A stretch of 64,000 nucleotides of DNA from Puniceicoccaceae bacterium. GTDB taxonomy: Bacteria; Verrucomicrobiota; Verrucomicrobiia; Opitutales; Coraliomargaritaceae. The DNA lies in the NCBI GenBank assembly GCA_902587165.1, contig CACIKF010000001.1, forward strand, positions 124,001 through 188,000, in the 5' to 3' direction. Positions 5,008 to 27,985 of the stretch are shown here, piece after piece. Position numbers and translations under genes: made by a program. Position 1 is the stretch's first letter, and the number at the start of each line of letters is the position of its first letter. The notes beneath the pieces were generated by a model. The model was not told the origin of the DNA. It worked only from the letters and a program-made list of their open reading frames with translations, and did not search any database.

Positions 5008-7908
5008 CTACTCTTTAGGACCAAGGGCGTAGCGGTGTCTTCGATAACCTGCATTCGAAGGGAGTTCCTCGAAACGCACGCCCAACGCTTCCACGATCGT
5101 TAAATTCACACCATCAACTGTGCTCTCAATAAAGCTATTTCCTGTGTGAATCGGCTGGTGAAAGCGAATGGTAAGCGTCTCACCCGGTTGTAGATTGACT
5201 CCTTTATGGGTTTTATTGCTATCTATATCACGCACGCGCAAATGTACGCGCTCGGTAGCATCACTGCGAAAGGTCAAGGTTTCGAGTAGCGCGACCTCGC
5301 CCTCAAAGCTGTAATGCCCTTGGTCATTAGGGCTCAATGTCGCTTCAGTAAACATGCTTCTGTAGTAGCCCCGCGTGAACGGTTCTGTGCTGTCACACTC
5401 CAGGGGATGCTCTCCAGATTGTGCTAGATAATCGACGATGTTCTGCTCTTCTTCAGCATGTTGTGCCTTGCGCTTACTTTCATAATAATCATAAAAAGCC
5501 ATTTCATCTTCATTCCATGCGTGTCCCTCTCGGTGGTCTCCAGAAAACGGTACTAACAGGTCAATCCACGCAAAGAGCTTGTGGTAATCTTCCTCCGTTA
5601 GCGTCACATCATGGTGGCCTTCCTCAAGCATCTTGACCATAGGACTCTTTGCCGAGCCTGCAAAATACGGTGGAATTTCATCCGGCACCGACATCATGTT
5701 AATCCATGACACAAAGCCTTTCTCTGGACGCCTAGTGAGATAGCTACCCCTATCATCCTGCTCTGCTTCGGTTAAATTCAAATACGAACGCGTCCACTTG
5801 CGCTTATTTTTATTCGCGCCATCGACGGCGATGCCGCGCAAGTCCATGCACTCGTCCTGACTGCCATCATGACAGTCGATACAGTTACGATCCAGAATCG
5901 GCTGAATCTCTTTGATAAAGCTAAAGCCACGGGCTTCACCATAGAACGCTTTCAGTTTTTGCGGTTCTCGGCTCCAAGCGATCGTATCCTCCTCTTGGTA
6001 AGGGTAGAAATTAGCATCCTCCTTTACATGGCAGCCCATGCAGGACTTTTGCTCGCCAGGACGAATGGTATCCCATGTGCGCGTGGTCTGAATAACCTGA
6101 CCCTTCGCATTCAATACTTGGTGATACTGCGACACCATAGCTGGAACTTCGAAACGTACGGAGCCATCTTCATGGATTTCCGCATCTCCCAAAATGCGTT
6201 TCACATCCCATGTCGCGTTACCGATGCTCACAGGTGTGCTATTCATAGACCCCCCTCCAGGGCCACCATTCGTTTTTGCACCGACGGGTGCAGCACGGTA
6301 ATCGAGTTCAACCACACGCAAGGTTTTCGCTTCACCGCGTGGAATGTCTTTTAGGCCAAGTCCCGCATACACATCATGCACGTAATAAATACCTGTATCC
6401 TTGGTGTAATCGACAGTATCAGGAATAGTTTTGGTTGGTGCTTTCTGCCTCATTGAAACCATGCGTTGCACCCCAAGATCAGGCGCACGCCAGAGCAACT
6501 CCCGCTCACCGTCGGCATTCATCCAATAAAGGCCATAGTGATTCGAAGAGCGGTAGCCTTGGTAGAGCTCAAAATGCCAATGCGGGTCGAATCCATAGTC
6601 TGGTTGATAGCTAATTAAAAACTCCTCTTCACTAAGCGGATATGGGAAGCGGAACTGTGCGCCCTCCTGCCCCCAGCGGTCTTTCACCACCGGTGACGCT
6701 CGCCCCGCGCCGACCTCGTAACCATGTTCTCGTCTAGGAGCGATCAAGTGAAGCCCCACCCCTTCGTCACGGCCTTCGTTCACATCGATGATCACAAGCT
6801 TACCATTTTGGTGCGTGTGATGCCCAGCAGCGATAGCCATAGTTTTATGCGAACCAGGGATTGGGCGCATGTGTAACAAAGAAGTCGGGAACCATGAGTT
6901 GCCCCCATAATAAACTCGCTGCCCCTGCCCGTCGGGGTTCATGGAAAATATCGGATGCGGGAATACCTGGCCACGATCACTATAATCCCAGCGTGTATAA
7001 CTGAGTCGACCATTGGTCAGCAACTGCGGATAGATAGTGTGCACCTGATCGATTGCAAGACGACGCACATAGCGACCTTCCCCATCCATTCGGTAGAGAT
7101 TACTTATTTCAGATTTCCAACAGGGCACGCTCTGCTCTGGGCGAGTCGATACGAAAACCAAATCACCATCCGGCAAATAGATCGGCTCGTAATCGGCACG
7201 TCCTAAGCCAAAGGTGAGTTGCTTGGTATCACCCGTTGCCAGGTAGTATTCATAAACATGATAGTCATCCAGTCTGTCTGATTTCTTCCATGCAAAGGCC
7301 AGCCTCTCTTGATCAAACGAGATATCCACATCACGCATCATACCATGTGGGTCCTCAATCAGCGGGCGCGCACTGCCGTAGAGTGAGCCCTCATCAAAGG
7401 CAAATATTGACAGGCGTGCTCCTGCTTTAAAATAGCGCTCAGCACGAGCATCTGAAAGACCTTCGGTATAGCCAAAGAAACTGTTCCGAATCGTCTCGCC
7501 CTCAGTAAAGCTGAATGGAGCCCAGTCCTGAATTACAGATGCAAGGCGTGTTGCACGGCGCTGCTCACAAAGCTGCAGATAGTCCTTAAGCGACGAAGAC
7601 TCACTGCGCCCATGCGCATGAAAAAGCTGTCGCACGATTGTAGCACGTCGCTCGGGAAGGACGATTTGCCAAGCGTCTGCACCTGCATCCTGAAGTATCC
7701 AGTCTGTCAATACAGGGAACTCAACACTCAAGTTGAAGAATGTTTTTTGAAAGGCCTCAGTGCGTGCTTCGTCCTTCAGTTCCTTATGCATACTCGTCGT
7801 AGCAGATAGAGCATCTGCGAATGCCTCAACATCAGGAGACGCATCAAGGACTGGAGAAGTCACTACAAATGCTACAAGCACACAAACGATTTGGATCAAG
7901 TTTTTCAT
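5008..7908 (-). CDS. hydrazine-synthase-alpha-like dihaem beta-propeller protein
   Basis: 966 residues with a signal peptide (residues 1-23). The middle (about 190-480) has TolB/WD-like propeller blades such as DVDISFDQERLAFAWKK and EPIYLPDGDLVFVSTRP. Two haem c sites follow: CMGCH at 623-627 and CIDCH at 676-680, the second in the context QPILDRNCIDCHDG seen in planctomycete-type cytochromes. The C-terminal 200 residues look beta-rich. This order matches the hydrazine synthase alpha-subunit-like family, which is widespread in Planctomycetota and Verrucomicrobiota far from anammox. There is no sign of the other hydrazine synthase subunits, so hydrazine chemistry is unlikely. Its position between sulfatases suggests a periplasmic redox or glycan-binding role in the locus; its true role is unknown. 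Confidence 0.75.
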   Translation of the reverse strand: MKNLIQIVCVLVAFVVTSPVLDASPDVEAFADALSATTSMHKELKDEARTEAFQKTFFNLSVEFPVLTDWILQDAGADAWQIVLPERRATIVRQLFHAHGRSESSSLKDYLQLCEQRRATRLASVIQDWAPFSFTEGETIRNSFFGYTEGLSDARAERYFKAGARLSIFAFDEGSLYGSARPLIEDPHGMMRDVDISFDQERLAFAWKKSDRLDDYHVYEYYLATGDTKQLTFGLGRADYEPIYLPDGDLVFVSTRPEQSVPCWKSEISNLYRMDGEGRYVRRLAIDQVHTIYPQLLTNGRLSYTRWDYSDRGQVFPHPIFSMNPDGQGQRVYYGGNSWFPTSLLHMRPIPGSHKTMAIAAGHHTHQNGKLVIIDVNEGRDEGVGLHLIAPRREHGYEVGAGRASPVVKDRWGQEGAQFRFPYPLSEEEFLISYQPDYGFDPHWHFELYQGYRSSNHYGLYWMNADGERELLWRAPDLGVQRMVSMRQKAPTKTIPDTVDYTKDTGIYYVHDVYAGLGLKDIPRGEAKTLRVVELDYRAAPVGAKTNGGPGGGSMNSTPVSIGNATWDVKRILGDAEIHEDGSVRFEVPAMVSQYHQVLNAKGQVIQTTRTWDTIRPGEQKSCMGCHVKEDANFYPYQEEDTIAWSREPQKLKAFYGEARGFSFIKEIQPILDRNCIDCHDGSQDECMDLRGIAVDGANKNKRKWTRSYLNLTEAEQDDRGSYLTRRPEKGFVSWINMMSVPDEIPPYFAGSAKSPMVKMLEEGHHDVTLTEEDYHKLFAWIDLLVPFSGDHREGHAWNEDEMAFYDYYESKRKAQHAEEEQNIVDYLAQSGEHPLECDSTEPFTRGYYRSMFTEATLSPNDQGHYSFEGEVALLETLTFRSDATERVHLRVRDIDSNKTHKGVNLQPGETLTIRFHQPIHTGNSFIESTVDGVNLTIVEALGVRFEELPSNAGYRRHRYALGPKE

Positions 7909-20099: not shown

Positions 20100-21482
20100 T
20101 CAGTTCATCTTTTCCGACGCACTCCGAGCACTAATGATTTCGTTCTTCCCACGGATGATCCGGCTTCTTCCTTCAAAAAAGCGCACATAAGACTTTAGCT
20201 CGTCCTCCCAGCTCTTTTCATATTTCTCATCCCCCGCTAGGAACAATATAACATTCAAAGATGGGGGCTGTTGCCCTCTGCTAATATACAACTTTTCGAT
20301 CACTTCTGTGAAGTGTTTTTCAACGCGTCTCGGGTCAATGTCCGTATGGCCAGGGCCACCCCCAGGGTGGAGGTTCTTCCATTTTAGTCCCAACTCTTTG
20401 GCTGCGCTACGGACGTCATCGATCTTACGGGCAAGCACACGGGGCGGTTCCCCGCGACTGGCACGAGCTTTGTTGATTTTAGCCAATTCATTGGCAACCC
20501 GTTGCTTCATCTCTAGCTCTTCTTGGTAAAATGCAGCAGCCTGGTCTTGATAAGCTTGGGAAGATCTAAGTTCTTCCCAAGCTAATAGCTGCGCCTCACT
20601 CGGTGGAGCCACCACCTTACCAAAACCACGGTGGTCGCCTGTAATCATAAAGATCGCGTCTGCACTTTGCTCAATGACAAGCTGAGTCATAAATGCAGTG
20701 TGGTTGTGCCCATTATTCCACGAAACCGCAGCTTGCATCTCGCTCTCTGGCAATGCTCTGAGCAGTGGCACAAAAGAGTCGTAAACACCCTCGAGGCCGG
20801 GTCTAGTCGCATCATCATTCACCGCTGAGATCCATTTAATCAACTCCTGATGCACCTCCGCTCCTGATGGCACTAGCCGTGGTTTGAAGAGCTTAATACG
20901 TCTAATATCCGTTAGCATAACGTTAAACAGGGTACCCGCAGAAAGGTTGCCTACCATATCAGAAATCTCATCTTTGATCACACGGTAACTATCCAAGCCA
21001 CCCTTTTTATCTGTTACCATTCGGCGATTTGTATCAATCACAAACAGGATACGCTCTGCCCGCGTCTTCAGGCCAAACACACTAATATCCGAGATCCCCA
21101 TGCCGATACTTCCGCGCGTGCCTCCGAGTAATCGACCCCCGCCAACTCCACCCAATCCTGCACTCACGGTAAAGCTCTGGTCCATATCAGGCAAATTTAC
21201 ATCCACATCAGCCACTGCAATATTTGCAACAGGGCGCATGCTTAAGCGCTGCGTTTGCGGGACTTTCGCCTGCTCCGGTCGAATGACTACCTTCACCTCT
21301 CGCGGTGGCTCTTCTTCAACGACCGATGGCGGAACCTCAAATTGCGCATCGTCCTGAATCACAATTGTAGCAATCGTCACGACTCCCGCGATAAAAGCTC
21401 CTACTACGTGCACCAAAACACTGGCGACGATCACCTTCATCAGCATCGGGTTCATCTTCTTCTTCAATTCGGCTGGTATCAT
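20100..21482 (-). CDS. membrane-anchored VWA-like protein with degenerate MIDAS
   Basis: 460 residues. A transmembrane helix (about 16-42) is followed by a Pro/Glu-rich linker with EEEPPREV, a Gly-rich segment (GGVGGGRLLGG near 110-121) and a VWA-like domain from about 144. Where VWA domains have D-x-S-x-S, it reads ILFVIDTNRRM (Asp150, Asn152, Arg154), so the metal site is probably lost. A charged helical region (about 290-350) may be coiled coil. It sits between the permease and epimerase genes in the transporter operon (27 and 38 bases apart). It may scaffold a glycan uptake complex; I cannot name the function. Confidence 0.6.
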   Translation of the reverse strand: MIPAELKKKMNPMLMKVIVASVLVHVVGAFIAGVVTIATIVIQDDAQFEVPPSVVEEEPPREVKVVIRPEQAKVPQTQRLSMRPVANIAVADVDVNLPDMDQSFTVSAGLGGVGGGRLLGGTRGSIGMGISDISVFGLKTRAERILFVIDTNRRMVTDKKGGLDSYRVIKDEISDMVGNLSAGTLFNVMLTDIRRIKLFKPRLVPSGAEVHQELIKWISAVNDDATRPGLEGVYDSFVPLLRALPESEMQAAVSWNNGHNHTAFMTQLVIEQSADAIFMITGDHRGFGKVVAPPSEAQLLAWEELRSSQAYQDQAAAFYQEELEMKQRVANELAKINKARASRGEPPRVLARKIDDVRSAAKELGLKWKNLHPGGGPGHTDIDPRRVEKHFTEVIEKLYISRGQQPPSLNVILFLAGDEKYEKSWEDELKSYVRFFEGRSRIIRGKNEIISARSASEKMN

Positions 21483-21509: not shown

Positions 21510-23321
21510 TTATTTCTCTGTCGGGACAACGATTCCCTGAATGATGACTTTTTGGCAAAGTATGAAAATCAATAAAGTTGGCACCGCCGCAATCATGAGC
21601 GATGCAAAGACGACGCCCTGCGAGGAAAACTGCTGCAATTGGTAGAGCCACACGGTCAGTGTCCACATGTCTTTATCCTGACACAAAATGAATGCATACA
21701 TGAAATTAGCATAAGCCCCATTGAAAGCCCCCAGCGCGATCACTGCAAGAATCGGCTTAGATAAATTCATAGTTATCATCCAGAACTTCTGCCACTCACT
21801 CGCCCCATCGATGTCGGCCGCTTCAAATAACTCTTGCGGCAAGCTATCAAAGAAGCCCTTGAGCAAGAAGATCGAGTAACCATTCGCCATAGTCGGCAGC
21901 AGTAATGCTGCAAAAGTATTCAACAAGCCCAAATCGCGCAGCAATAGGAAATTCGGGATCATCGTCACCACCCCCGGAAATGCCATCGTCGCAATGAGAA
22001 ATAGAAGCACCTTGAATTGCCCTGGTAGCTTGTAGCGCGACAAGGCATATGCTGCAAGGGGATTAACCAGCAGCGCTAGTGCGATTGCCGCCAAGCAATA
22101 GATCAAAGTATTCTCAATGCCGCTACCGTAGAAGAAGATATACTCCAGCACCATGCGGTAATTGTTGCCTACGAAGTAAACCCTTAAATCGCTCGCGTTA
22201 GCTTCTACATACTTAAGATCCGCTTCGACTTGCGGCATATGCACCTCCGAAAAAGATTCGTAATGGCGCTCATGCGCTGAGGCTGTGGCACTAATAGAAC
22301 CGTATTTATTTTCCAAATACGCCTGCCAGCGGAGCTCTGGAGTGTCCAAGGATAGGGCCCCCAATTCACAGAGGTCTGGGTTCGAAATAAATTGCAAAAA
22401 ATCAGACAGCTGAACCGAAGCTGTCATTTTATTTTCAGGCATTACAACTGAATCAAAAGTTGAATAGTCAGTTGCATAAAGTTTGTTAAGATGCACCACG
22501 ACTCCATACTTACTTTCTAGGTATGCTACCCAAGCTTCCTTCTGCGACGCATCCACCCTGATGAACTGCGGATGTAAGAATCCGCGCACATACGCTTCCC
22601 ATTCCGGTAAATTAGAGCGAACAGTCAGATGAGAATCTGCCCCTCCCAATTGGGCTAGCTTCAAATATCGAAGATAGGACGCATTACAGGATACGTATAT
22701 CTGATCTTCCAGTGGCAGGGTCTGCTTAAATGCGTAAAATGCCTCTATTAAAGGAGACGAGCTCAATTGATACTTGCGGTCCGTTAGGCGCTCCGGCGGA
22801 AACTTTAAAAAGAACCAGCTTTCAATCGGTTCGTCAAAACGCTCATGGAAGACTTCGAGATCGTTACCGCACAAGTCACTTACATACTGACGAAATGCGC
22901 GTTCGTTACGTTGAATTATTTTACCCTCCTGTGTTGGCCCGAACGCTGTGAGGAACCAGCTAGTTGGCATCTTCGCAGAACTGACGAATTCCGTCCAGTC
23001 TGCCACTAATACTGGATTATGATAGGGTAATGTGACCGCTCTGAAGTTGGGCGCATCGTCTCCCGTCGCAGAGCGAAATTCTACAATTCGTTCACTATAC
23101 TTCGCTTCCACATACTTACGAAAAAGCATCGTGTCATCGTGAATAAAGCGCGGCACAAGATCCAGTTCTTGTACGTCTACTCGGCTCTTAAACGAACCAG
23201 ACGCCATCAACAAAAAGGGATAGACCATGCTGAGCGAGCCCAAGGCCAACGAGGCATATAAAGCAAAATAAACGAGGCGCGAACGAAATTGCCTTTTCTC
23301 AGATGGTAAAATAACAGGCAT
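21510..23321 (-). CDS. sugar ABC transporter permease (MalG-like) with repeat-containing periplasmic insert
   Basis: 603 residues, about twice the usual 280. TM1 (about 17-40) is normal. An insert of about 330 residues then separates it from the remaining helices (from about 403), which carry the EAA loop QELFEAADIDGASEWQKFW. The insert has recurring units: FRKYVEAKYSE (67), WVAYLESKYGV (264) and WQAYLENKYGS (332), each followed about 20 residues later by F-x-x-V-x-x-P. Weaker copies lie near 143 and 241. It faces the periplasm by topology. It is coupled to the upstream fused permease gene (4-base gap). With it and the ATPase it should import an oligosaccharide. The insert may bind the ligand or the fused binding domain. 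Confidence 0.88.
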   Translation of the reverse strand: MPVILPSEKRQFRSRLVYFALYASLALGSLSMVYPFLLMASGSFKSRVDVQELDLVPRFIHDDTMLFRKYVEAKYSERIVEFRSATGDDAPNFRAVTLPYHNPVLVADWTEFVSSAKMPTSWFLTAFGPTQEGKIIQRNERAFRQYVSDLCGNDLEVFHERFDEPIESWFFLKFPPERLTDRKYQLSSSPLIEAFYAFKQTLPLEDQIYVSCNASYLRYLKLAQLGGADSHLTVRSNLPEWEAYVRGFLHPQFIRVDASQKEAWVAYLESKYGVVVHLNKLYATDYSTFDSVVMPENKMTASVQLSDFLQFISNPDLCELGALSLDTPELRWQAYLENKYGSISATASAHERHYESFSEVHMPQVEADLKYVEANASDLRVYFVGNNYRMVLEYIFFYGSGIENTLIYCLAAIALALLVNPLAAYALSRYKLPGQFKVLLFLIATMAFPGVVTMIPNFLLLRDLGLLNTFAALLLPTMANGYSIFLLKGFFDSLPQELFEAADIDGASEWQKFWMITMNLSKPILAVIALGAFNGAYANFMYAFILCQDKDMWTLTVWLYQLQQFSSQGVVFASLMIAAVPTLLIFILCQKVIIQGIVVPTEK

Positions 23322-23325
23322 CAGC

Positions 23326-25821
23326 TTAACTCTTAGCAGTGGTGAAAGTCATGCGAGATATCCGCTTCATTTGGAACATCGTTAATCCAATCAAGAAGAA
23401 GCCCAAAATCCATGCTATCGCGATCGCAACGCCAAAGCGCAGATATACATATGCATCGTAGAAAATCTCAAGCCCGATCACATGCGTCGCGTGGTCAGGT
23501 CCGCCAGCGGTCATGACCAACACATTATCGGCCGACTGAAAAGCACCGATCAATACAAAGATCAATTGAATCATTACTAAAGGCCGAATCGTCGGTAGCG
23601 TAATATGCCAGATGCGCCCCAAGAAACCAGCCCCATCAATTGCGGATGCCTCGTAGAGATCTTCTGGCACAGTCTTGAGTGCCGCGAGATAAATTAAACA
23701 GCCTGGACCCATGCCCGCCCATGCCAGCGGTATAATAATCGAAACCATTGCCTGTGACTTATCTTGTAGCCATTTTTGCGGGCCAAAATCTAAAATGGCC
23801 AGCACTTGATTGAGCGCACCCGCCTCTGATGGATCAAAGAACATTTTCCACATCAACATCACGATCAGGCCCGAGACTAAGGCAGGCAAATAATACAATA
23901 CGCGGAACAAGACACTCGCGCGCGGTAATTCGCTCAAACAAAGCGCTAATATGATCGGTGGTAGAAATACCAATAAGAGGCTCCAGAAAACATACTCTGC
24001 CGTGCGTATAATTGATACCCAGAAGACACTATCAAACAATACGGCTGCAAAATTATCAACACCCACAAAGGTGGATTCGCCTATCACATTATAGTCCAAA
24101 AATGCCATCCGAGCACCCACCACTAAGGGGTAATAATTAAATACAAAAATCGAAGCAAGCGCTGGGGCAAGTAATACATACGCGAGCCAATATTTCTTCA
24201 GCCACCCCCAAAAACCGCGCTTCACTTCACCTTCTGGTCCAGAGAACAGGCGCCAAATATACGTAAACATTAACCCAAATGATACCGCGACTAGGAGCAT
24301 CACCGCGGAGGCCACCTTACGCCGAAATACCATCACATCCTCAGGAATTTGCCCAAGCATCTTCTCATTAATTTCCTGCACCGCCGTATCATACAACGCC
24401 TGCAACCGAGCTAGGCGTGTCCCATCATCCGCAATACGCGGCACGCCCTCAGAAAATGCGCTCTGCAAGGGCTTACTAGCCCGTTCAATGTACACTTGGC
24501 AATTCTCGCCATACGGCTCGGGTAATGAATTCTCCAAAGCGAATTCAAGGGTATGCTTCCACTGCGCGGGCACGGTAGCTGCGTATTCAGTATAGCCATG
24601 CTGTGCCAGTTTCTCTGGATTGATGAAACTAGCGTATCCATTTTCCACATACGTTTGTACGATTACACGCTCCGCCGCCGGACTTCCCACAAATCGTAGA
24701 AATTTCCAAGACGCGGCAATCTTTTCGGGATCTTCCGTGGTCGCGCAGACCCCCAAGCCACGTACATGTAACTCAGTAATGGATTTCCCGGAAGGCGCAA
24801 ACGGAACAGGCACCAAGCCAAGCTCTCCTGGGCTCATACTGGAAATGTGATCATCCGCATTGATCAAAATATCGTTTATGTAGAGCAAGCTCATCCCGAT
24901 ACGGCCACGGTCCCAGATTGACCAAGCCTCACCGCTACTCATTCCAACGCCATAGCGCTGCTCCCCATCCTCATCGGTCCAGGGAGCATCTACGAGCTTG
25001 GAGTAAAAGTCAGCCGCCTGCACCGCGCCCGCATCGTTGAAACGAGCGACCCAATTGCCTGTATTTTCCTCGCGCTCGACAATTTTTGAACCCATAGAGA
25101 AGAAGAAAGGCAGCGAGGTCCAACCAGCTCCACCCTCTTTCCCTAGAATAATACCATAACGGTCCTCACCGGGGTCTTGAATCTGTTGCGCAACCGCCGC
25201 AAGTTCATCCCATGTTTTTGGATAATCCTTATCCGGATCAAGGCCCGCCTCTTGAAAGACAGTCTTATTATATGCCATCACGCGGACAAAATAACTAAAC
25301 GGTAAAAAATAAAAATGTCGCTTACCGTCAGAATCAACGCGCGACACCGCGTCCCAAATTTGAGGCCGTACCCGCTCCTCCAACTCATCACGATACATGA
25401 TGTTTTCATCGTATTCACCTAACTTCTTTGCTTCGGCGGCGGTCTGCTCCGAATTAATGTATTCATCCAAAGGCAGCAAAAAGTTACGCCCAATGTAGCT
25501 CCCCGACTGCCTTGTATTCACATGTATCACATCCGGCGCAGTGCGCCCGGCAATGGACATCAAAAGTGGCGCTTCACCTGCTGGTCCTTCCAGCTTCAGC
25601 GACAATGAATTGCCCTCTGGGCGGATGTTCGGATATTTTTCACGAAAGGCACGATATACAGCCATCTCTGCCTTACCAGCTATGCTAAAAAGCGCATCGG
25701 GGCTAGGCGCGAAATCGGTCGTCCGAATCGACACAGTTGATTCGGCAGTCACTGTTACTGAAAAAAACGCTATTTTACAAAGCAGAAGAGCTAAGAAAAA
25801 ATGTAATCGCGAGGCACACAT
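23326..25821 (-). CDS. fused sugar-binding protein and ABC permease (MalE-MalF-like)
   Basis: 831 residues from the ATG at 25821; an in-frame TTG 12 bases upstream is less likely. After a signal peptide, residues about 27-490 form a family 1 extracellular solute-binding protein (RTAPDVIHVNTRQS, PKTWDELAAVAQQI, WSIWDRGRIGMS). A helix near 505-525 and then a full MalF-like permease follow (from about 545), with the EAA loop EDLYEASAIDGAGFLGRIW. So binding protein and permease are one polypeptide. The frame is continuous, with no stop or frameshift between the two parts. It precedes the second permease by 4 bases. The predicted role is oligosaccharide capture and import. Confidence 0.92.
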   Translation of the reverse strand: MCASRLHFFLALLLCKIAFFSVTVTAESTVSIRTTDFAPSPDALFSIAGKAEMAVYRAFREKYPNIRPEGNSLSLKLEGPAGEAPLLMSIAGRTAPDVIHVNTRQSGSYIGRNFLLPLDEYINSEQTAAEAKKLGEYDENIMYRDELEERVRPQIWDAVSRVDSDGKRHFYFLPFSYFVRVMAYNKTVFQEAGLDPDKDYPKTWDELAAVAQQIQDPGEDRYGIILGKEGGAGWTSLPFFFSMGSKIVEREENTGNWVARFNDAGAVQAADFYSKLVDAPWTDEDGEQRYGVGMSSGEAWSIWDRGRIGMSLLYINDILINADDHISSMSPGELGLVPVPFAPSGKSITELHVRGLGVCATTEDPEKIAASWKFLRFVGSPAAERVIVQTYVENGYASFINPEKLAQHGYTEYAATVPAQWKHTLEFALENSLPEPYGENCQVYIERASKPLQSAFSEGVPRIADDGTRLARLQALYDTAVQEINEKMLGQIPEDVMVFRRKVASAVMLLVAVSFGLMFTYIWRLFSGPEGEVKRGFWGWLKKYWLAYVLLAPALASIFVFNYYPLVVGARMAFLDYNVIGESTFVGVDNFAAVLFDSVFWVSIIRTAEYVFWSLLLVFLPPIILALCLSELPRASVLFRVLYYLPALVSGLIVMLMWKMFFDPSEAGALNQVLAILDFGPQKWLQDKSQAMVSIIIPLAWAGMGPGCLIYLAALKTVPEDLYEASAIDGAGFLGRIWHITLPTIRPLVMIQLIFVLIGAFQSADNVLVMTAGGPDHATHVIGLEIFYDAYVYLRFGVAIAIAWILGFFLIGLTMFQMKRISRMTFTTAKS

Positions 25822-25907
25822 AAACAAAAACAAGAAGGCAAATTAAAACTGAAAGGTAATCGTTTCCGGCAAATCTGACTATAGCAAGAGGCGTCAAATA
25901 TATGTCT

Positions 25908-26810
25908 CTACACGACATCATGAGGTATCGTGCCTTTATTGACCGCTTTACGATATGCACCCGGAGGCATACCAAAGTGCCGTCTAAATCCTTTAGAAAA
26001 CGCAAAAACACATTGATAGCCAATACGGTCCGCGACCATTACCATCGTCATATCGGTCGAACTAAGCAACTCGCGCGCATGCTCCATACGGATGCGCATT
26101 AATAAGCCCTCAGCTGTCACATCATAATTCTCCTTCATGATCCGCTGAAACTGCCTCACGGACACATGCATACGCTTCGCCAGTGCGGGCAAGTTCCACC
26201 CTTCACCCGGATTTGCATTCACCTCTTCCCAGACATGAGTGAGACGTAAGCGCACGCGATTGCCTCCTGTAAATTGCCCATCTTTCAAATCGCGCACGAT
26301 CGCCTCTGAAATATAGGTCGCCAAACCGACCGGAGCAGTCGCTCCCGGGCCTTTAGTGGCCGCGGACTCTTGTAAATATGCCTCCATGGCGAATATGATG
26401 GGCTCTACGCTATGGGATAAATCACGGTGTAGCATCTTTCCCTCAAGATGCACGAATTCATGCGTGCGATACAAAGCCGCAGAGATAAATTTCCAATCAT
26501 CCTGCGCCTTATATTGATAAGCCGTCTCGAGAGGGCCGACCCAAATCTGTCCAGGCTCCATCACACCCACTTCACCTAAACATTCAAATTCTGCATGTCC
26601 TGAAACGGTGATCAAAGCAAGGTGCCAAGGAAAAGTCAGGCGGCGCACTTCATAGGGCGGTGCTACTTCGTGCAAGCCAAGCCCACGAATCCCATGATCG
26701 CGAAACGGCGACGCATAGCGAGGCGCCATTGGGAGGTGCTGATCGCGACATGCATCAGGTATGCAATGATACTCCTTAGTGAAGCTCGTCTGAATTGATT
26801 TGCTGGGCAT
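25908..26810 (-). CDS. AraC-family transcriptional regulator
   Basis: 300 residues. The N-terminal about 180 residues form a cupin-like sensor (PPYEVRRLTFPWHLALITVSG, MEPGQIWVGP). The C-terminal about 100 residues are the double helix-turn-helix: NLPALAKRMHVSVRQFQRIM and then VADRIGYQCVFAFSKGFRRHFG, a standard AraC signature. It is probably the local activator of the transporter and sulfatase genes in response to a sugar or glycan fragment. It lies between the ATPase gene (41-base gap) and the fused permease gene (86-base gap), in the same direction, so it may be autoregulated. A purine-rich run lies just before the ATG. Confidence 0.9.
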   Translation of the reverse strand: MPSKSIQTSFTKEYHCIPDACRDQHLPMAPRYASPFRDHGIRGLGLHEVAPPYEVRRLTFPWHLALITVSGHAEFECLGEVGVMEPGQIWVGPLETAYQYKAQDDWKFISAALYRTHEFVHLEGKMLHRDLSHSVEPIIFAMEAYLQESAATKGPGATAPVGLATYISEAIVRDLKDGQFTGGNRVRLRLTHVWEEVNANPGEGWNLPALAKRMHVSVRQFQRIMKENYDVTAEGLLMRIRMEHARELLSSTDMTMVMVADRIGYQCVFAFSKGFRRHFGMPPGAYRKAVNKGTIPHDVV

Positions 26811-26851: not shown

Positions 26852-27985
26852 TCAGGCTATCACGCAAGGCGCCTCTAGCCTCAATTCACTCTCAGCATCA
26901 AACAAATGCACCTCATCCAAATTCGGCTTCACGCTTAATGACTGGCCGATGTTCGATTGCACAATTCCAACTAATCGCACAACCAGCTTATCTCCATTTG
27001 AAACCGAAAGGTGGATAAAGCTTTCCGCACCCAAGGGCTCCCCAACCTCAACCTCTGCATGAATCGCCTGCGGGTCATCTGCCTCGCAAGCGGAAAAATG
27101 CTCAGGTCGCACTCCCAGCACTAGCGGTTTGCCTAGGTACGCTCGAGCGATCTCGCCCAAGCGGGCGGTGAGTTCTATCCGATTCGCTCCTGTTGCTTGA
27201 CTCACAAAATAATAGCCGCCATCGGCTTCCAGCACGGAGCCATGCAAAAAATTCATCTGCGGAAGACCGATAAAGCCCGCAGTAAACATATTGGCGGGAT
27301 TCTGATAAATGTTAATCGGTTCATCAACCTGCATGATTTCACCGTCCTTCATCACGCAGATCCGATCCCCCATAGTCATCGCCTCCGTCTGATCATGCGT
27401 CACATAAATCATGGTCGCGTTCAAACGCGCATGCAGCTTGGAGATTTCTGCACGCATCTGCACACGCATTTTAGCGTCTAAATTAGACAGCGGCTCATCG
27501 AACAGAAAGACATCTGGCTTACGGACGATCGCGCGGCCCAGCGCTACGCGTTGCCGCTGACCGCCAGAAAGCGCTTTTGGCTTACGGTTCAACATCGAGG
27601 TCAGTCCCAGAATGTCCGCGGCTTCTTCGACGCGTTGTTGAATCTCCGCTTTTGGAGTCTTCCGCAGCTTCAGCCCAAATGCCATATTGTCGGCAACCGT
27701 CATGTGTGGGTACAGTGCGTAATTCTGAAACACCATTGCGACACCACGATTCTTCGGCAGCACATCGTTCACAATGCGATCTCCAATACAAAGATCTCCT
27801 GAGGACGCTTCCTCTAAACCAGCAATCATACGCAAGGTGGTTGACTTACCGCAGCCCGAAGGGCCAACAAGCACCATGAATTCCTTGTCGCGTATTTCTA
27901 AATCAATCCCCTTCACCGCATAAAAGTTATCCTTTGTGCCGGGATTGTAGGTTTTTTTTAAATATTTAAGCGTGACGCCAGACAT
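26852..27985 (-). CDS. ABC transporter ATPase, MalK/UgpC/MsmX-like
   Basis: 377 residues. Walker A is GPSGCGKST (41-49), the signature is LSGGQRQRVALGRA (about 138), Walker B is VFLFDEPLSNLDA and the switch His is in YVTHDQTEAMT. A C-terminal TOBE-like regulatory domain follows (VLGVRPEHFS, HLFDAES). Length and order match the sugar-importer ATPases that serve two different permeases, so it should power the transporter formed by the two permease genes downstream. It is the first gene of the - strand run, facing the intergenic region at 27986-28356, which should hold its promoter. Confidence 0.95.
   Translation of the reverse strand: MSGVTLKYLKKTYNPGTKDNFYAVKGIDLEIRDKEFMVLVGPSGCGKSTTLRMIAGLEEASSGDLCIGDRIVNDVLPKNRGVAMVFQNYALYPHMTVADNMAFGLKLRKTPKAEIQQRVEEAADILGLTSMLNRKPKALSGGQRQRVALGRAIVRKPDVFLFDEPLSNLDAKMRVQMRAEISKLHARLNATMIYVTHDQTEAMTMGDRICVMKDGEIMQVDEPINIYQNPANMFTAGFIGLPQMNFLHGSVLEADGGYYFVSQATGANRIELTARLGEIARAYLGKPLVLGVRPEHFSACEADDPQAIHAEVEVGEPLGAESFIHLSVSNGDKLVVRLVGIVQSNIGQSLSVKPNLDEVHLFDAESELRLEAPCVIA

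Follow-up and report, generated by a model that had tools for sequence, protein, structure and literature searches.

A putative sugar importer encoded in a marine Puniceicoccaceae genome raises the question of why its MalG-like permease carries some 340 residues between TM1 and TM2, next to a MalF-like partner that is itself fused to the binding protein (SBP). The window, meaning the whole 64,000-nucleotide stretch of DNA analysed here, is part of a 1.85-Mb genome assembly whose nearest relatives are marine Puniceicoccaceae/Opitutales MAGs. On its minus strand the importer genes run in the order MalK/UgpC-type ATPase (26852..27985; ABC_tran E 3.6e-32, with OB_MalK and TOBE_2), AraC-type regulator (25908..26810; HTH_18 E 2.4e-21), SBP-MalF fusion (23326..25833; 835 aa, P0002), MalG-like permease (21510..23321; 603 aa, P0001), a membrane-anchored protein of 460 aa (20100..21482), aldose epimerase and sulfatase. 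Many sulfatases and GH127 surround these genes in the window. The sulfatase-rich locus suggests that the imported compound is a fragment of sulfated polysaccharide, with which the lifestyle of related bloom bacteria is consistent (PMC8857213). A sulfatase locus in the window encodes a 966-aa protein (5008-7908, minus strand) that matches the hydrazine synthase alpha middle domain (PF18582, E 1.1e-31).

Enlarged permease subunits of the importer

The original prediction that both permeases carry large additions was borne out: the MalG-like subunit has a repeated, ordered module and the MalF-like subunit a fused SBP. In the single P0002 chain SBP_bac_1 (61-387, E 1e-28) and BPD_transp_1 (641-817, E 3.4e-14) are joined in a layout of signal peptide, SBP (~31-490), TM (~505-528) and MalF/UgpA-like TM domain (~545-830). 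Residues 546-826 match positions 9-289 of the 295 in the UgpA model, and there is no loop of P2 size; a search of this protein for the unit repeats described below found none. Its listed start is a TTG, and an ATG four codons on (25821), still ahead of the signal peptide, is the likelier start.

P0001 contains a BPD_transp_1 domain (438-591, E 4.5e-14; PF00528, 53 bits against a cut-off of 26.4, starting at residue 438) and a cytoplasmic coupling segment of the EAA type, EAADIDGA, at residues 500-507. The MalG model NF008231 matches residues 409-598 at E 1.2e-23, a score under its equivalog cut-off, and the AlphaFold2 model aligns with MalG (3rlf_G) over 230 residues at Z 14.9 and 3.6 Å, parts of the TM core having pLDDT <50. 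The domain, the EAA-type segment and the TM fold thus place it in the CUT1/MalG type, and the MalF-type partner, SBP and MalK-type ATPase of such an importer are all present, the SBP being fused to the MalF-type partner. In the model TM1 is a helix of residues 12-42 (23196..23288) and TM2 one of residues 401-429. The TM2-TM6 core comprises residues 400-603 (21513..22124), and the insert comprises about residues 57-398 (some 340 residues; 22128..23153), all on the minus strand. The insert is predicted to be extracytoplasmic because the N-terminus ahead of TM1 is rich in K and R (positive-inside rule).

The 460-aa protein (orf460), directly 3' of the permease, had zero matches in a Pfam search. 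It displays a single N-terminal TM, a TonB-like proline-rich stretch and then a vWA-like start (ILFVIDTNRRM), and it is conserved in this place beside the permease/fusion pair in the seven nearest loci (L018-L024). In two Lentisphaeria/Verrucomicrobia MAGs (L030, L032) the position immediately 3' of the permease is taken by proteins of ~680 aa with C-terminal TPR-like matches.

The repeat unit and its kinship with glycosidases

Tandem repeats had been proposed between TM1 and TM2 on the basis of three similar stretches, LFRKYVEAKYSE at residue 66, WVAYLESKYGV at 264 and WQAYLENKYGS at 332, each followed by an F-x-x-V-x-x-P motif. All three are present, with the motif as NFRAVTLP, FDSVVMP and FSEVHMP, respectively. 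A core HMM of 33 residues (consensus LFRDYLKAKYGSIEALNRAYGTSYASWDDVPLP), from whose training set P0001 and its closest relatives had been left out, recovered them at E 1e-2, 2e-8 and 1.7e-9, and gave 194 matches in 51 real proteins against 0 in 20x shuffles. A 65-residue unit HMM, again with the closest relatives excluded from training, recovered four units in P0001; the shuffles yielded 4 matches at the looser cut-off of this HMM. Neither disorder nor an absent internal repeat score, the two observations named beforehand as telling against the repeats, was seen: the repeats score significantly when close relatives are withheld from training, and AlphaFold2 predicts an ordered insert.

The units, spaced by ~70 residues, can be placed as follows: 1) unit 1 at residues 58-113 (22983..23150; unit HMM E 3e-9, genome search with profile A3 E 4.1e-6). 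2) Unit 2 at 134-198 (22728..22922; unit HMM E 3e-4; helices 138-150 and 155-162), which makes the weaker copy suspected near 143 a real one. 3) Unit 3 at ~199-250 (22572..22727; strand 207-209, helices 212-222 and 239-247), which is degenerate in its hairpin and has lost its second helix, whereas relatives show a clear hairpin and a complete unit at this place (e.g. L030, 204-270, unit HMM E 7e-25). 4) Unit 4 at 251-314 (22380..22571), the clearest copy (unit HMM E 1e-13; A3 E 1.1e-10). 5) Unit 5 at 327-375 (22197..22343; unit HMM E 1e-11; A3 E 6e-12). The other weak copy suspected, near 241 (WEAYVRGFL), does not begin a unit but matches the third helix (DWxxFVR) of unit 3.

As the permease core dominated fold searches with the whole model, the insert was modelled separately. 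AlphaFold2 of residues 50-398 gave a pLDDT of 92.0 and a pTM of 0.88, with five units of a strand and three helices. In the full-length model the block means of pLDDT across the insert are mostly 84-95, the lowest being 74. Each unit is laid out as a short strand, a helix FxxYLxxKYG, a helix IxxLNxxYGT, a turn SFxxV, a P and a helix DWxxF.

A profile made from permease units only matched, in the PDB, the GH42 enzyme 1kwg (152-200, E 2.1e-9), the beta-amylase 3voc (4.2e-8) and the exo-carrageenase 6ptm (4.3e-8); the remaining matches were nearly all GH42, GH14 or agarase-type, with one stretch per chain. Foldseek with the insert gave zero matches under E 0.001, its top ranks being GH42-, agarase-, carrageenase- and beta-amylase-type enzymes, and a viral structure library gave nothing below E 0.68. 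A second-look structural aligner superposed 64 residues on 6ptm at 1.6 Å and 67 on 5gsm at 1.8 Å, with 60-70 residues at 1.6-2.7 Å in several rows and a VIA Z <8. This kinship, the basis of which is ~40-65 residues per single unit, becomes visible only with the family consensus and profile, not with the single P0001 insert: a phmmer search of the PDB with that insert had a best E of 0.25, to an unrelated anti-sigma factor. Within its own genome the A3 search confined the units to P0001, apart from a single copy in a complete GH42 enzyme, where it sits after the NEY acid/base motif (WHVGNEYSG); direct pairwise alignments of the P0001 units with this enzyme score an uninformative 22-39.

The unit is thus the counterpart of the segment that follows strand beta4 in the GH42-type glycosidase barrel, and common ancestry of this segment is likely, though not proven. 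Compared with GH42 beta-galactosidases (PF02449), the permease repeats this one stretch five times and has no whole barrel, acid/base Glu or GH42M/C domains. No complete GH42 catalytic barrel was found in P0001, PF02449 being matched only at 150-210 of its 376 positions (E 6e-4, under the cut-off); relatives match this 150-210 segment several times each. None of the five P0001 units is preceded by the acid/base Glu, which in GH42 belongs to an NE motif where beta4 ends, and in the alignment with 1kwg a five-residue gap of the profile falls on AFWSQ, the Trp-bearing tip. The insert would then have arisen by borrowing and amplifying a glycosidase segment.

The insert family and its pairing with a fused binding protein

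Searches of a genome collection recovered 54 relatives from Opitutales, Lentisphaeria, Kiritimatiellae, Phycisphaerales, other Planctomycetota, Armatimonadota and single MAGs labelled otherwise; one of them (L071) is a standard permease of 316 aa. The insert forms a conserved family that spans Verrucomicrobiota, Planctomycetota and Armatimonadota, and almost every full-length relative, in several phyla, has kept it. It ranges from 340 to 889 residues and mostly has 4 to 6 units; the longest seen belongs to a 1150-aa permease of a Planctomycetota MAG (L067, 5862-9311), in which the HMM finds the maximum of eight. The median identity to relatives is 68% in the TM2-TM6 core versus 25% in the insert. 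One further match (G114:C16) has four units in a 407-aa ORF that stops at the contig end. A search of viral contigs found no relatives; 2003 plasmid records match, 0 of them covering >80% of the query, and among the matches listed only the TM core is covered. Three relatives in Phycisphaerales/Planctomycetota and Hydrogenedentota MAGs (L053, L061, L070) have an extra hydrophobic stretch of ~56 residues within the MalG TM core, after IP(S/N)FLLLK. The SBP-MalF fusion is known already; the likeness of the MalG insert unit to a GH42 segment is new here, and a search of open papers found no report of a MalG insert of this kind.

Where the available sequence of a relative extends far enough, the gene immediately upstream of the long MalG is nearly always an SBP-MalF fusion. 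Long and standard MalGs are clearly separate in a sweep of 195 genomes of the phylum. Among the matches listed whose neighbour could be classed clearly, 53 long MalGs adjoin a fusion (six of them of the second lineage described below), while 0 of 18 standard MalGs do so, all 18 adjoining a standard MalF (Fisher p 4.6e-16, for rows that share descent; 14 long and 41 standard matches had no listed neighbour). The sole long MalG beside a standard MalF (G153:C98) proved to be an ORF run-through, the real gene starting near residue 380. Four candidate exceptions with a standard MalG and a mid-length MalF ORF (G127:C65, G053:C1, G125:C2, G201:C29) have no SBP fusion as far as reading frames show. 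Genuine departures from the pairing are L060, with 3.8 kb upstream lacking an SBP-MalF partner, several genomes of family f21, in which the long MalG and the fusion are both present and unlinked, and G153:C37, where no MalG directly follows a fusion of the second-lineage type.

This second lineage (L072-L077) combines an SBP-MalF fusion with a MalG bearing ~300 residues in the same TM1-TM2 loop, unrelated to the repeat insert: the sequence, apparently beta-rich as judged by eye, has no repeat unit and no Pfam match. In a tree of the TM core these proteins are nested among standard MalGs with good support, and a single clade uniting them with the repeat family is rejected (p-AU 0.0126 with four long branches left out, a somewhat generous value since the first tree had already been seen when the grouping was chosen). 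Insert and fusion therefore probably arose twice. Across 26 non-redundant pairs the identities of insert and SBP show a partial correlation of 0.60 (rank 0.53) with both TM domains controlled and non-linear terms, while the partial correlation of the insert with the MalF TM domain is 0.13 and with the MalG TM domain 0.27. This is suggestive of insert divergence tracking SBP divergence, the pairs not being independent between species. Co-occurrence, the parallel lineage and co-divergence together lend indirect support to the view that the insert belongs with the fused SBP, and as insert-bearing relatives almost always adjoin an SBP-carrying partner, the insert may be an unrecognised docking arm.

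Possible roles of the insert

Our best explanation, to which we give an even likelihood of being right as a whole, importer type and GH42-equivalent units included, is that the insert serves the tethered SBP as a docking arm and has no catalytic function. The system would be a CUT1-type (MalFGK2-like) sugar importer with its binding protein permanently tethered through fusion to the MalF-like subunit. The MalG-like TM1-TM2 loop would hold an ordered non-catalytic arm of five strand-plus-three-helix units, and this arm would most likely serve to dock the SBP above the path of translocation, so that its task would resemble that of E. coli MalF-P2. We favor docking because the MalF part has no room for a P2, the SBP is tethered and MalG has a large module. 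Moreover, the unit lacks the catalytic Glu and, in the profile, the sugar-touching tip, making protein docking at least as likely as ligand recruiting.

The E. coli MalFGK2-MalE system likewise combines a MalG-type TM fold, a MalF/UgpA-type partner, a MalK-type ATPase and, next to the SBP, a large extracytoplasmic loop domain. The latter, MalF-P2 (residues 91-271), is a large periplasmic region, which in simulations moves jointly with MalE (PMC3150292). It lies in MalF, whereas the present loop domain lies in TM1-TM2 of the MalG-like subunit and consists of repeated alpha/beta units, and the SBP, free in E. coli, is fused here. A natural MalE-MalF fusion, which shares the joining of SBP to MalF subunit, is transport-competent by the account that PMC7756565 gives of Licht et al. 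2019. OpuA and GlnPQ (PMC11065425, PMC8025302) also have binding domains tethered to the TM domain of an ABC importer, in other importer families and with other substrates.

The pairing exceptions listed above speak against docking, and two further observations that do so favor its main rival, which we consider possible and on the whole rather unlikely: that the insert is a glycan-binding module, the units or inter-unit grooves of which hold oligosaccharide and pass it to the fused SBP. First, a shared ligand would also produce the co-divergence of insert and SBP. Second, in GH42 enzymes the corresponding region serves to complete the sugar site of a neighbour: in BiBga42A the substrate site of the neighbouring subunit is made complete by Trp-200 and Phe-221, which sit at the tips of long helices (PMC10688820), and the unit profile matches residues 171-199 there, ending just before Trp-200. 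The kinship with GH42, agarase, carrageenase and beta-amylase segments and the wealth of sulfatases in the window, with GH127 and epimerase, fit such a module too. However, the profile gap falls on the very tip that holds the Trp in 1kwg, and the few neighbourhoods inspected outside Opitutales contain no glycan locus, so that the insert does not seem to go with any one glycan. An unlikely scenario is that tandem amplification turned a glycosidase fragment into a glycan-gripping, non-catalytic arm within the permease itself, importer, tethered SBP and arm forming a self-contained capture machine for polysaccharide fragments.

It is improbable that the insert ties the importer to another part of the envelope, be it peptidoglycan, the outer membrane or some partner in the periplasm (for example, the membrane-anchored or TPR proteins encoded downstream): the downstream genes are conserved within clades (orf460 and the TPR-tailed proteins), but they vary between clades while the SBP fusion is constant, and such a tie does not predict co-divergence with the SBP. 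Still less probable is a passive structural addition with no transport role that pairs with the fusion by shared descent only, since the insert, though the least conserved part of the permease and variable in length, is kept across phyla, and the second lineage gained another insert in that loop, likewise together with an SBP-MalF fusion.

The large loop beside the SBP belongs to MalF in the best-known sugar importer, whereas in the present tethered-SBP family of several phyla a large module sits in MalG. A large MalG module has seemingly joined a tethered SBP twice, with unrelated domains, which makes it directly testable what a permease must gain once its SBP is tethered. The repeat unit in turn suggests the reuse of a segment of a glycosidase barrel. 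For marine Verrucomicrobiota that eat sulfated polysaccharides, one study noted only putative transporters in place of SusCD (PMC8857213), and the SBP-MalF/long-MalG system is a candidate importer for them. In another importer, whose SBP is free and whose MalF is standard, the MalG has a smaller loop insert of ~100 residues (L121, 2232-3419); hence, some loop enlargement happens without fusion.
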